NCBI GenBank assembly: GCA_017560095.1
Contig: JAFYOU010000053.1
Span: 33,631 to 97,630 of the forward strand
DNA from: Candidatus Gastranaerophilales bacterium
Lineage (GTDB): Bacteria > Cyanobacteriota > Vampirovibrionia > Gastranaerophilales > Gastranaerophilaceae
Reading direction: 5' to 3'
DNA: 64,000 bases
In this document: positions 58,386-61,207 of the stretch, in pieces
How positions within the stretch are numbered: the stretch's first letter is position 1
Layout: every line of letters begins with the position of its first letter
Position numbers and translations under genes: made by a program
Notes under the pieces: model-generated
Database searches by the model: none
What the model saw: only the letters and a program-made list of their open reading frames with translations
Told to the model about the DNA's origin: nothing

Positions 58386-58853
58386 TTGAAAAAGACATTG
58401 TCTATCTTAATACCTTTGTTTTTAATGTTTGCGCTTATTTTAAATCAAGTGCTACCGGCTGATGCTGCAAAGAAAAATGTTAAAAAGAAGGGTGTTGCTC
58501 AAGAGGTGTTGGCTGACTTTTCAAATAGGGTAAATATTTTGACTCAAAAAGTATATGAAAGAGAATTATTTACGCCTGAAGACTCAAAATCATTAATATC
58601 TTTAAAATTGCAATTAGATGAGCATATGGACAATCTTCCAGAAGCTACTTTTGCTCCAATATATTTCAAAATAGGAAATATTTATAGGCTTAGAGGCGAA
58701 GAAAAAGATGCAATTGTTTGTTATCAAACAATTTTGGAGAACTTTTCTGACACTGCTTATGGGCCGAAAGCTAGGGACATTTTAACTCAAATGGGAGTTG
58801 AAATAAGAGTTCCGATTGATGAAAATGAAGACGATTTTGATGAAGAAATTTAA
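58386..58853 (+). CDS. Secreted TPR-like protein, TTG start
   Basis: The 155-residue protein begins with TTG 58386, supported by GGGGAG 6 nt upstream. A signal peptide (LSILIPLFLMFALILNQVLPADAA, about residues 4-27) precedes a helical domain. Its PIYFKIGNIYRLRGEEKDAI and CYQTILENFSDTAYGPKARD segments fit a TPR/YbgF-like pair. An acidic tail (ENEDDFDEEI) ends it. It is periplasmic and presumably a protein-interaction module. It lies upstream of the riboswitch-controlled pair but has its own promoter. Confidence 0.72.
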   Translation: MKKTLSILIPLFLMFALILNQVLPADAAKKNVKKKGVAQEVLADFSNRVNILTQKVYERELFTPEDSKSLISLKLQLDEHMDNLPEATFAPIYFKIGNIYRLRGEEKDAIVCYQTILENFSDTAYGPKARDILTQMGVEIRVPIDENEDDFDEEI

Positions 58854-58894
58854 CACTATTTTATTTTTGTGTTAGTATTTTTTGTGAATTTAAT

Positions 58895-59015
58895 ATAGGA
58901 AATCGGGGTGGAATTCCCCAACTGGGCCGCAACCGTTATAGTCGGAACACTAATTTTTAAAGCATATTGCGGAAAATCCAAATGCTTAACTCTAAAAATT
59001 TATTGTGGCCCAAAA
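58895..59015 (+). promoter_or_regulatory. Candidate short-form cobalamin riboswitch
   Basis: The leader before ATG 59025 contains, in order, pieces that match the cobalamin-riboswitch core. These are AGGAAATC (the GGGAA-type box), the P5 hairpin GGGGTGGAATTCCCC (58905-58919), GGGCCGCAACCGT (the CCCGCAACTGT-like J6/3 element, 58924-58936) and AGTCGGAACAC (B12-box-like, 58940-58950). A hairpin AAGCAT...ATGCTT (58959-58986) could be P13/L13. The compact spacing fits class-II short forms that lack the peripheral arms. TGGGCC (58923-58928) is complementary to GGCCCA (59007-59012) just 5' of the AGAGGG ribosome site, a possible expression platform. Codon use in this stretch is unlike the organism's genes, arguing it is not coding. 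Confidence 0.7.
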
Positions 59016-59024
59016 GAGGGTCAA

Positions 59025-59729
59025 ATGGTAGCGGCAACAGGAGTAGCATCAGCACAAAATACGGGTAAATGTCCTCATGGGCTTCCGATTGGCACATGTC
59101 CAATTTGTTCGGGCATGGGTGGCGGAGCTTCAACTCAAAGAAAAGATAAACCAAGAGTGCCGGGAGAGATGAGTTATGCTGAGTGTATGGCAGCTTGGAT
59201 AAAAATTCAGGCTGCAAAAGAGGCTAAAATTGAAGCACAAATTCAAAGATTAGAAAACGCCCAAGCTACATATATACAGCATAGGGTAATAATGGGGCTT
59301 GATAAAGTTATGCAAAAAATGGATGCTTTTTTGCAAAAATTAGATTCTATGCCAAAAGTGTTCGCAGTTTCAATCAAAATAGTTATTAATGTAATAGTAA
59401 AGCCGATTTTAAATTTAATAGCAAAAGTTTCTCAAGCAATAAATTATATTCAGGTGGTTTTTAGTAATATTAGGAATTTTATTGTTTCGGTTGGTGAAAA
59501 GCTTGCTTCGATATATGGCGAAATTAAAAATTTTGTGAATGCAAAAATTGCTCAACCGTTGAAAAAAACTATAAAAAGTATACTTAACTTTTTTACCCAA
59601 GGCGAAGAGGAAGAAAACGAAGAAAGAGAAAAGCTTAAATCAAGAGAAATTAAAAAGGTTTTAAAGGGTTTATTTAGGTTAAAAAATAAACATAAAAGAG
59701 AGTTAGAAGAATCAGAAGAAGATAAATGA
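59025..59729 (+). CDS. Unknown protein with C-P-H-G...C-P-I-C metal-binding-like motif
   Basis: The protein is 234 residues from ATG 59025, chosen because AGAGGG lies 4 nt upstream. The frame stays open to a GTG at 58908, but that extension coincides with the riboswitch-like leader. Near the N-terminus KCPHGLPIGTCPICSGMGGG puts C16, H18, C25 and C28 in a zinc-ribbon-like arrangement, followed by PGEMSYAECMAAWIKIQ. A helical region (50-110) and a hydrophobic stretch (about 111-150) come next, then a charged tail rich in Glu and Lys. No known family is recognised. It overlaps the next gene by 4 nt (ATGA), so the two are cotranslated. Confidence 0.6.
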   Translation: MVAATGVASAQNTGKCPHGLPIGTCPICSGMGGGASTQRKDKPRVPGEMSYAECMAAWIKIQAAKEAKIEAQIQRLENAQATYIQHRVIMGLDKVMQKMDAFLQKLDSMPKVFAVSIKIVINVIVKPILNLIAKVSQAINYIQVVFSNIRNFIVSVGEKLASIYGEIKNFVNAKIAQPLKKTIKSILNFFTQGEEEENEEREKLKSREIKKVLKGLFRLKNKHKRELEESEEDK

Positions 59730-61207
59730 TAAAGCCAAATCAGTTTGATGTATATAGAAAAAAAATTGCAAATAGCTATCCGCATAATGATACTATTAAG
59801 GGAATTCTTTTGAATAATTATATTAAAAGGGATTCTTCTGAGCGAATTGATGATTTCGATAGAATATCAAGCGAGCTTTTAATTCCAAATAATTTAGAGT
59901 CGGTAAAAAATAAAGAAAAAGAAAAGAAAAAATCGTTTGATTTTAGAAAAGCGCTAAAGCCTGCGGCGATTGCAACAAGCGTAGCATTGGGTGGACTTTT
60001 ATTAATAAGTTGTGGTGTAAAAAAATACTCAAATATTATGGCAAATAAAAGTGATATTGTTCGTCCTGGAGATTTAGCAAGAAATATAAATATTTTGGAA
60101 GAGCCTCATTTTGCAGCATATCGAATGCTTAGAGATCCTAATGCAAAAAATGTTGCAGGTTTTTTTGGCGTGTGTTTAATGAGTGCTGTGACTTTGATTT
60201 CAAAGAATTTTGTTGATGCAACAAAAGAAATTTGGATTAAAAAACAAGAATGCGATATTGAGCATGATTTACAAGAGAATTTAATTGAGGTTGAAGCAGA
60301 AGCTTTTTCTGGGAAATTAAATGTAGTTAATACTTTGTTAACAGATACAACTAAATATTTTAAATCTGTTTTGTCATCAAATGAACAAACTAAAGGTCTT
60401 AATTTTAAAAATCAATTGAGTTTCAAAGGAAATGAAAAAGAAGACAACAATAAAGAAAAAAAATCTAATTTAATGCCTATTTTAACAATTGGAGTTGGAA
60501 TAGCTGGCTTTGTTGGATTAAGTTTTTTAATGTTTAAAAATTATCAAAAAACTTTGAAAAATCTTGATACTTTTGTTCAAAAATTTGAACATAATGAAAT
60601 TAATGCAAAAATAGATAGTGCGCTAAAAAATACCGATAAAGCAACTGCGATTAAAGATTTAAAAGATATTTTTAAAGTGATTAATGCAACCAAAAAGACG
60701 ATGGAAGAAAATCTTTCAAAGATTAATGGAATAACTTCTGACGAAATTCAAAGTGTAATAAAAGAAGTATCTGAAGCACAGATATATGCTCAAGCACCGG
60801 AGGCATTAGGGGGAATTAGTGAGAAAATTCAATATTATTGCTATATCAATGAAGAAAGAGGACATTTGTATAATTGGATATTAAATCCTGAAAATAAATT
60901 TAATAAATATTTATTCTTGTGTTTTAGCGCTTTAAGCGCAATGGGGTATATTGCAAAGCAAGCATTGGATGCTATAAAGAGTGTGATTATAAGTAAAGAA
61001 AATTCAAAAAGTGAACTTGAATTGAAAAAGCGTTTAGTGGAAACAGAAATTAGTAATTTTAAAGCTAAAAAACTCTGCGCAGTTAATCCTCATATAGATT
61101 GTTTTATTTCTCAATTAGAAGCAGGAAGGCCCAAAGAAGAATTAAAACAAATGGCGGAAAATATTCTAATTGAAATTAAAAATGGTCCGCCATATGTTTA
61201 TTCATAA
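59726..61207 (+). CDS. Unknown multi-helix membrane protein
   Basis: The 493-residue protein has about four hydrophobic segments (about 75-97, 140-160, 250-272 and 395-415) separated by charged helical regions. LSFKGNEKE near residue 230 is an SFKG motif similar to NPISFR in the protein at 3634. The C-terminal part (LELKKRLVETEISNFKAKK, then NPHIDCFISQLEAG) is soluble. No family is recognised. It is translationally coupled to the Cys/His-motif protein and so would be under the same riboswitch-like leader. Confidence 0.58.
   Translation: MIKPNQFDVYRKKIANSYPHNDTIKGILLNNYIKRDSSERIDDFDRISSELLIPNNLESVKNKEKEKKKSFDFRKALKPAAIATSVALGGLLLISCGVKKYSNIMANKSDIVRPGDLARNINILEEPHFAAYRMLRDPNAKNVAGFFGVCLMSAVTLISKNFVDATKEIWIKKQECDIEHDLQENLIEVEAEAFSGKLNVVNTLLTDTTKYFKSVLSSNEQTKGLNFKNQLSFKGNEKEDNNKEKKSNLMPILTIGVGIAGFVGLSFLMFKNYQKTLKNLDTFVQKFEHNEINAKIDSALKNTDKATAIKDLKDIFKVINATKKTMEENLSKINGITSDEIQSVIKEVSEAQIYAQAPEALGGISEKIQYYCYINEERGHLYNWILNPENKFNKYLFLCFSALSAMGYIAKQALDAIKSVIISKENSKSELELKKRLVETEISNFKAKKLCAVNPHIDCFISQLEAGRPKEELKQMAENILIEIKNGPPYVYS

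Follow-up and report, generated by a model that had tools for sequence, protein, structure and literature searches.

An AdoCbl-II cobalamin riboswitch upstream of an unrecognised gene pair in the bacterial order Gastranaerophilales

The AdoCbl-II riboswitch (Rfam RF01689) was described as the AdoCbl-variant by Weinberg et al. (2010, PMC2864571), where the table gives its taxa as Marine. Cobalamin riboswitches of class I and class IIb bind adenosylcobalamin and those of class IIa prefer methyl- and hydroxocobalamin, according to PMC11260477. Two further RNAs are close points of comparison: the B12 riboswitch of Mycobacterium tuberculosis ppe2, which in the same paper is a uORF-coupled off-switch, and env8, in which an L5-L13 kissing loop forms over the ribosome binding site (PMC10907184).

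Here we analyse a leader within a 64 kb stretch of DNA, referred to throughout as the window, from a Candidatus Gastranaerophilales genome. The leader shares with AdoCbl-II the same full-length model, P3, P5, P6 and the core helices, and differs from it in belonging to a gut-dwelling order (180 of 192 genomes), in lying upstream of an unrecognised gene pair, ORF1-ORF2, and in carrying a Shine-Dalgarno hairpin after a P13-like hairpin. Like the ppe2 riboswitch, it is compact, class-II-like and placed before a gene of uncertain function, and the off-direction reported for ppe2 would apply here as well; organism, downstream gene and expression platform differ. Translational occlusion of the ribosome binding site, the outcome for env8, is the proposed outcome here too, although the Shine-Dalgarno site of the window sits in a hairpin of its own and L5-L13 complementarity, under a crude assignment of the loops, is not above permutation (255 of 1000 permutations at least as good). 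Compared with BtuB-BtuCDF uptake, a BtuB/C/D/F-like operon stands under the same aptamer at five related loci (L091, L098, L100, L103, L165), whereas ORF1-ORF2 has no recognised homology to that system. No literature on ORF1-ORF2 or on B12 riboswitches of the order was found among the open-access titles and starts of abstracts listed, with PMC8066212, which names a cobalamin riboswitch and Melainabacteria, set aside. The analysis demonstrates that the aptamer is present, conserved and linked to the ORF1-ORF2 operon, and we put the probability that the leader is a riboswitch that controls this pair at about 85%.

Identity and structure of the aptamer

The compact leader belongs to the AdoCbl-II family of cobalamin riboswitches. 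When the window was compared with all 4227 Rfam families (cmscan), RF01689 was the sole family above its gathering cut-off, matching positions 58881-58960 of the plus strand over the full model (1-81) with 46.2 bits (E 5.8e-8; curated cut-off 36.5 bits), and this was its one match in the 2.07 Mb, 58-contig genome that holds the window. The class-I cobalamin model RF00174 had no match anywhere in that genome at E <= 0.001. A first-pass annotation, made from the letters alone, had read the leader as cobalamin-riboswitch-like and compact in form; the Infernal search bears this out with RF01689 at 46.2 against 36.5 bits, RF00174 being without a match, and the conserved motifs that the annotation quoted are all present, at slightly shifted limits. 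A clade covariance model, R1, built from 58 aptamers, scores the window aptamer at 79.7 bits, with the window (L032) in its training set. Across the order, RF01689 at E <= 0.01 is matched in 180 of 192 genomes (145 above cut-off), against 5 of 14 control genomes (1 above cut-off) in the same search, and the match is therefore not attributable to chance.

Table 1. Elements of the leader and operon in the window, with the third gene of related loci
Feature	Position	Strand	Basis
Promoter-like site, weak (TTAACA-17-TAGTAT, extended TG)	58850-58878	+	position just 5' of leader
AdoCbl-II aptamer	58881-58960	+	RF01689, 46.2 bits
TAGGAAA motif	58896-58902	+	direct reading
P3 5' strand (UAG), partner CUA 58950-58952	58896-58898	+	permutation count, 115 leaders
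P5 hairpin GGGGTGGAATTCCCC (GGGG-UGGAAUU-CCCC)	58905-58919	+	reading and covariation
Core motif CTGGGCCGCAACCG	58922-58935	+	direct reading
Core motif AGTCGGAACACTA	58940-58952	+	direct reading
P6-like stem (U23-A31, G24-C30) and core CCG/CGG helix	58922-58945	+	covariation
P13-like hairpin AAGCAU...AUGCUU	58960-58987	+	reading; present in aptamer-constrained fold
Anti-Shine-Dalgarno strand UUGUGGCCCA, also complementary to aptamer 58923-58932	59003-59012	+	duplex -18.8 kcal/mol
Shine-Dalgarno-sequestering hairpin UGGCCC-AAAAGA-GGGUCA	59006-59023	+	stem search; shuffle p=0.15
Shine-Dalgarno AGAGGG	59015-59020	+	direct reading
ORF1, 234 aa, CPHGxPxxxCPxC motif, one hydrophobic stretch at 115-133	59025-59729	+	ORF and homologue alignment
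ORF2, 493 aa, four predicted membrane helices, internal duplication	59726-61207	+	ORF and predictions
Third gene	L210:3428-3946, L211:3469-3990, L212:4151-4702, L213:4510-4968		

The secondary structure of the AdoCbl-II core is supported by covariation in homologues (Table 1). In an alignment of 84 matches, one row of which is a second, antisense match at locus L109, core positions pair in 88.4% of cells against 79.9% after shuffling, 125 cells against 41 are changed on both sides, and the covariation score of 0.337 compares with 0.158 for shuffled alignments, was reached in none of 500 shuffles and exceeds that of slid versions (at most 0.247). P5 is paired in 99.4% of cells with changes on both sides in three of its four pairs, while the P6-like stem and the CCG/CGG helix are paired in 100% of cells and contain one compensatory pair each (in 5 and 2 sequences), the other three pairs being invariant. 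P3 is misaligned in the 84-row alignment, where it is 54.4% paired; with the motif anchored, 104 of 115 leaders have a standard third P3 pair, against a permuted mean of 66.7 and a maximum of 82 in 2000 permutations. The base preceding the P6 stem co-varies with the Y of AGYC (A with U, G with C or U) in 112 of 115 leaders. In the Rfam alignment of the window, the closing helix has non-standard pairs at two of six outer (P1) and two of five inner (P3) positions. The antisense match (L109:119-245, minus strand, genome G001; 42.8 bits with R1) lies beside an ORF1 leader and points in the opposite direction. Promoter-like sites between 58700 and 59100 are not significantly enriched, with three found against 1.4 (sd 1.0) expected by shuffling.

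Conservation of the riboswitch and the gene pair

Homologues of ORF1 were found in 83 of 97 sampled genomes of the window's family, and R1 places the aptamer upstream of ORF1 on the same strand at 83 of these 83 loci, the distance to the chosen start of ORF1 being 47-221 nt; because some of the same sequences went into the training of R1, this count is not an independent test. The homologous leader that the first-pass annotation proposed to look for upstream of relatives of the 59025 gene is thus present in every family genome carrying ORF1. The independent Rfam model RF01689 links the aptamer to ORF1 in 47 of 52 genomes among the matches listed. With R1, the aptamer was also found at 22 of 24 contig loci derived from ORF2 (absent at L082 and L084) and at 13 of 15 further loci, always upstream of ORF1 (absent at L208, in G126, and at L231); these 15 comprise 14 loci from other families and one from the family genome G126. 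At L085 and L134 the aptamer lies further upstream, and the R1 search did not include L235, which a contig end truncates. Earlier counts with a motif pattern (112 of 119) and a looser pattern (115 of 119) are superseded by the covariance model.

The aptamer-ORF1-ORF2 arrangement is common to five families, and the riboswitch class is not the same in all of them. In family f3 the class-I model RF00174 is above cut-off in the same place, before ORF1-ORF2, at six of eight loci (L209, L228, L229, L230, L233, L234); of the remaining two, L232 matches RF01689 below its cut-off and L231 has no match. In families f5, f7 and f6 the RF01689 model exceeds its cut-off at L210, L211 and L214 and matches below it at L212 and L236 (f7), and L213 (f6) is matched by R1 only. 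The exchange of one riboswitch class for another before an unchanged target argues strongly that control of the pair by B12 is important. At the loci looked at, the riboswitch-pair unit is kept and its neighbours differ; a tRNA follows the pair in the f3 genome G010 (L228:1142-1214), and in the window the gene upstream (58386-58853) has a sub-cutoff TPR match.

Eight of the nine family genomes that are without an RF01689 match are also without ORF2; the exception, G126, has ORF1-ORF2 without the aptamer, beside a gene that by eye reads like ychF. ORF2 was found in 52 of 146 genomes of the class, all 52 from the window's own family, and the 20 listed of the 94 class genomes without ORF2 all come from other families of the class. 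ORF2 is carried by 16 of 31 selected genomes, and 15 of these belong to the order's other families. From these sequence searches the pair looks restricted to the order Gastranaerophilales, and ORF2 relatives in named records are mostly Candidatus Gastranaerophilales. A phage origin of the pair was considered and rejected, neither phage records nor viral contigs yielding a match to ORF2.

Relatives also carry the aptamer in cis upstream of B12-related genes, where the window has the unrecognised pair. Among 32 riboswitch loci of relatives, examined by tblastn with reference genes taken from five of these same loci, nrdD-type genes lie downstream at 20 (four of which, L088, L093, L094 and L157, are called on distant matches of 23-26% only), a TonB-receptor/BtuC/BtuD-like (BtuB/C/D/F-like) operon at five and ORF1-ORF2 at four, with single cases of metE, of a B12-binding radical-SAM gene and of none of these (L101). 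By hmmscan the reference genes for NrdD (TIGR02487), NrdG2 (TIGR02495) and B12-independent methionine synthase (TIGR01371) are over cut-off, as are the B12-binding and radical-SAM Pfam domains of the reference radical-SAM gene; the L091 genes resemble BtuB, BtuC, BtuD and BtuF, although the named models do not reach cut-off for them. At L101 (G004) both RF00174 and RF01689 match, and some of the genes that follow resemble hemA, a sirohaem-synthase-type gene and hemC when judged by eye.

The two genes overlap by four bases (ATGA), and ORF2 follows ORF1 at 114 of 119 distinct loci, blastp finding no ORF2 in the available stretch of the remaining five. Neither reaches a curated cut-off in Pfam or NCBIfam (for ORF2 including PF01032), which upholds the earlier view that the genes at 59025 and 59726 belong to no recognised family, and the PDB holds no significant match to ORF1 and none to ORF2 at E <= 1. 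In 24 sequences of ORF1, 14 positions are invariant, including C16, P17, H18, G19, P21, C25, P26, C28 and C54. ORF2 contains the invariant motifs KIQYYCY and RGHLYNW and predicted hydrophobic segments at 80-98, 143-161, 252-270 and 396-414, and its two halves match each other as profiles (hhalign) with a probability of 91.8% (E 7.3e-7, 80 columns), against 0.8% for the best of 30 column-shuffled controls; a second, weaker half-to-half match (18.3%) aligns helices 1 and 3. At loci L210-L213 of families f5, f6 and f7 a third gene (ORF3) of 153-184 aa, with a motif like RNYxxFNxPLV and no Pfam family, follows the pair. It is absent at the window locus, where a convergent beta-ketoacyl synthase gene follows ORF2.

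Expression platform

We propose a model in which corrinoid binding would stabilise the aptamer, upon which the anti-Shine-Dalgarno strand would close over the Shine-Dalgarno site and stop translation of ORF1; ORF2, which overlaps ORF1, would be silenced along with it, such that abundant corrinoid in the cell would keep the operon off. That the switch acts in the off-direction, how it switches and that ORF2 is coupled to ORF1 we infer from the riboswitch class, the co-regulated genes, the Shine-Dalgarno hairpin and the ATGA overlap, and the off-switch mechanism stands as a proposal because folding shows no switch and permutation within the window's clade gives no support.

A hairpin over the Shine-Dalgarno site suggests control at the level of translation. 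In most leaders the 3' arm of a hairpin covers the Shine-Dalgarno region and both arms change together, as in GGCCC/GGGUC, UGCUCC/GGAGCA, AGUGCC/GGCGCU, AUCCUUAC/GUAAGGAU and GUCCUCUG/CAGAGGAU; the best stem of each leader was taken, and some of these stems are poor. The hairpin is enriched over shuffled sequences, with p<0.05 in 39 and p<0.2 in 76 of 115 leaders (60 dinucleotide shuffles each), the window itself giving p=0.15. Unconstrained, the window leader folds at -39.9 kcal/mol with the aptamer absent, and at -24.4 kcal/mol with the aptamer enforced; in equilibrium folding the Shine-Dalgarno hairpin is closed at 0.99 in both cases, and no switch is seen.

Pairing of the anti-Shine-Dalgarno strand with the aptamer is put forward as a suggestion for the anti-sequestor; equilibrium folding of the window leader does not select this pairing. 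In the 77 of 115 leaders that pass filters on stem length, loop length and Shine-Dalgarno content (the other 38 being removed), the mean energy of this pairing is -12.0 for own partners against -10.5 (sd 0.21) for permuted ones, a difference matched in 0 of 5000 permutations. Measured as the longest complementary run, the pairing is not above permutation, either in all 115 leaders (76 of 1000 at least as good) or in the window's clade of 17 (755 of 1000). Complementarity between the region after the aptamer and the P6 loop segment is slightly above permutation in the 115 leaders (8 of 1000) and shows no excess in the window's clade (420 of 1000). Termination attenuation is possible in 47 of 115 leaders, as at least four T follow the stem before the start codon in these; no terminator-like site was found in the window leader. 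In the window itself the open frame of ORF1 extends from 59729 back to a GTG at 58908. A translated leader was rejected as a general explanation, the ORF1 frame being open from aptamer to start in just 6 of 112 related leaders.

Function of the pair and the B12 economy of its hosts

B12 genes were surveyed in 37 hand-picked genomes, among them the nine of the family in which RF01689 has no match, and the fractions below should accordingly not be read as population rates. NrdJ (TIGR02504) and BtuR (PF02572) are over cut-off in exactly the same 18 of the 37, a pattern that would fit retention of the adenosyltransferase solely to serve the class II reductase. FecCD is over cut-off in five, the MetH activation domain and QueG were found in none of the 37, and B12-binding domains occur in 31 at E <= 1e-4 and in 21 over cut-off, with the majority of those listed lying in open frames of 430-545 aa. 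Four genomes of the window's genus (G000, G089, G093, G095) yielded none of NrdJ, BtuR, FecCD, the MetH activation domain and QueG, and the single B12-binding match of the window's genome lies in a radical-SAM protein. Of the 12 family genomes with NrdJ and BtuR, 11 are without a FecCD/BtuC-type permease, and the FecCD-bearing genomes G033, G105 and G128 retain ORF1-ORF2. Of the eight family genomes without RF01689 and ORF2, seven also have neither NrdJ nor BtuR, whereas G102 carries NrdJ together with two copies of BtuR. Two BtuR matches are present in 15 of the 18 BtuR genomes, and at L204 and L205 they are about 8-9 kb apart. The content of NrdJ, BtuR, FecCD, MetH or QueG was rejected as an explanation of the pair, none of them tracking it cleanly across the 37 genomes.

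B12 uptake is a common use of such riboswitches. ORF2 may be a duplicated membrane protein of 2+2 helices, partnered by ORF1 with its Cys/His motif, and we tentatively read the two as a membrane complex that acquires or handles corrinoid under B12 shortage, a reading that falls somewhat short of an even chance. A role in uptake would suit a duplicated membrane protein whose host genomes have few known permeases, although no protein homologue in Pfam, NCBIfam or PDB supports transport. Counting against this reading are G102, with NrdJ and BtuR but neither ORF2 nor riboswitch, G126, where the pair lacks the riboswitch, the three FecCD-bearing genomes that retain the pair, and the lack of NrdJ, BtuR, the MetH activation domain and QueG in the four tested genomes of the window's genus. 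More tentatively still, the pair, joined in some families by ORF3, could constitute a new order-wide system that acquires or handles corrinoid and is unrelated to BtuCDF, ECF and the other described ones, kept under B12 control by two riboswitch classes. Another role under the same riboswitch, which we consider rather unlikely, would be a general one in the envelope or in stress, timed by B12 (through slowed DNA synthesis, for example) and involving no direct corrinoid chemistry: the proteins have no B12-related homologue, CPHG...CPxC would resemble an ordinary zinc-binding motif and the pair is retained where NrdJ and BtuR were not found, yet control by B12 has been kept across two riboswitch classes and five families, which exceeds what an incidental link would lead one to expect. 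It is more doubtful that the pair replaces or bypasses a step that depends on B12, in the way that NrdD substitutes for NrdJ and MetE for MetH. The commonest other genes linked to the aptamer are indeed B12-independent isozymes, NrdD-NrdG above all, and MetE, and genera that have neither NrdJ nor BtuR still keep the pair; however, no enzyme family is recognised in ORF1 or ORF2, ORF2 resembles a four-helix membrane protein, and the window's genus retains few of the tested B12-dependent steps that could be replaced.

A separate question concerns the ligand. With NrdJ and a BtuR-type adenosyltransferase lacking in the four tested genomes of the window's genus, and four of the 11 closing-helix pairs non-standard in the Rfam alignment, the aptamer there could sense methyl- or hydroxocobalamin or another corrinoid in place of adenosylcobalamin, or be a decaying relic. 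We hold this to be unlikely, though not to the degree of the bypass, as the genus has conserved the core intact, with 46.2 bits in the window and up to 54.4 in G089, and the adenosyltransferase absence covers the BtuR type, as distinct from the PduO and EutT types. Chance resemblance, or membership of another riboswitch class such as FMN, could draw on the FMN model RF00050, a weak look-alike over the same stretch with 18.0 bits (cut-off 66.2, E 0.099); we reject it as extremely improbable on the RF01689 score above cut-off, the B12 genes co-regulated in relatives and the conservation at 83 of 83 loci.

The riboswitch class is one already known, but it marks two unannotated protein families as belonging to B12 biology in a widespread gut lineage. 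The recurrence of the switch-pair arrangement across relatives makes ORF1-ORF2 a good candidate for an unrecognised system of B12 uptake or handling, and the question of how these bacteria obtain or husband B12 becomes a test of two named genes.
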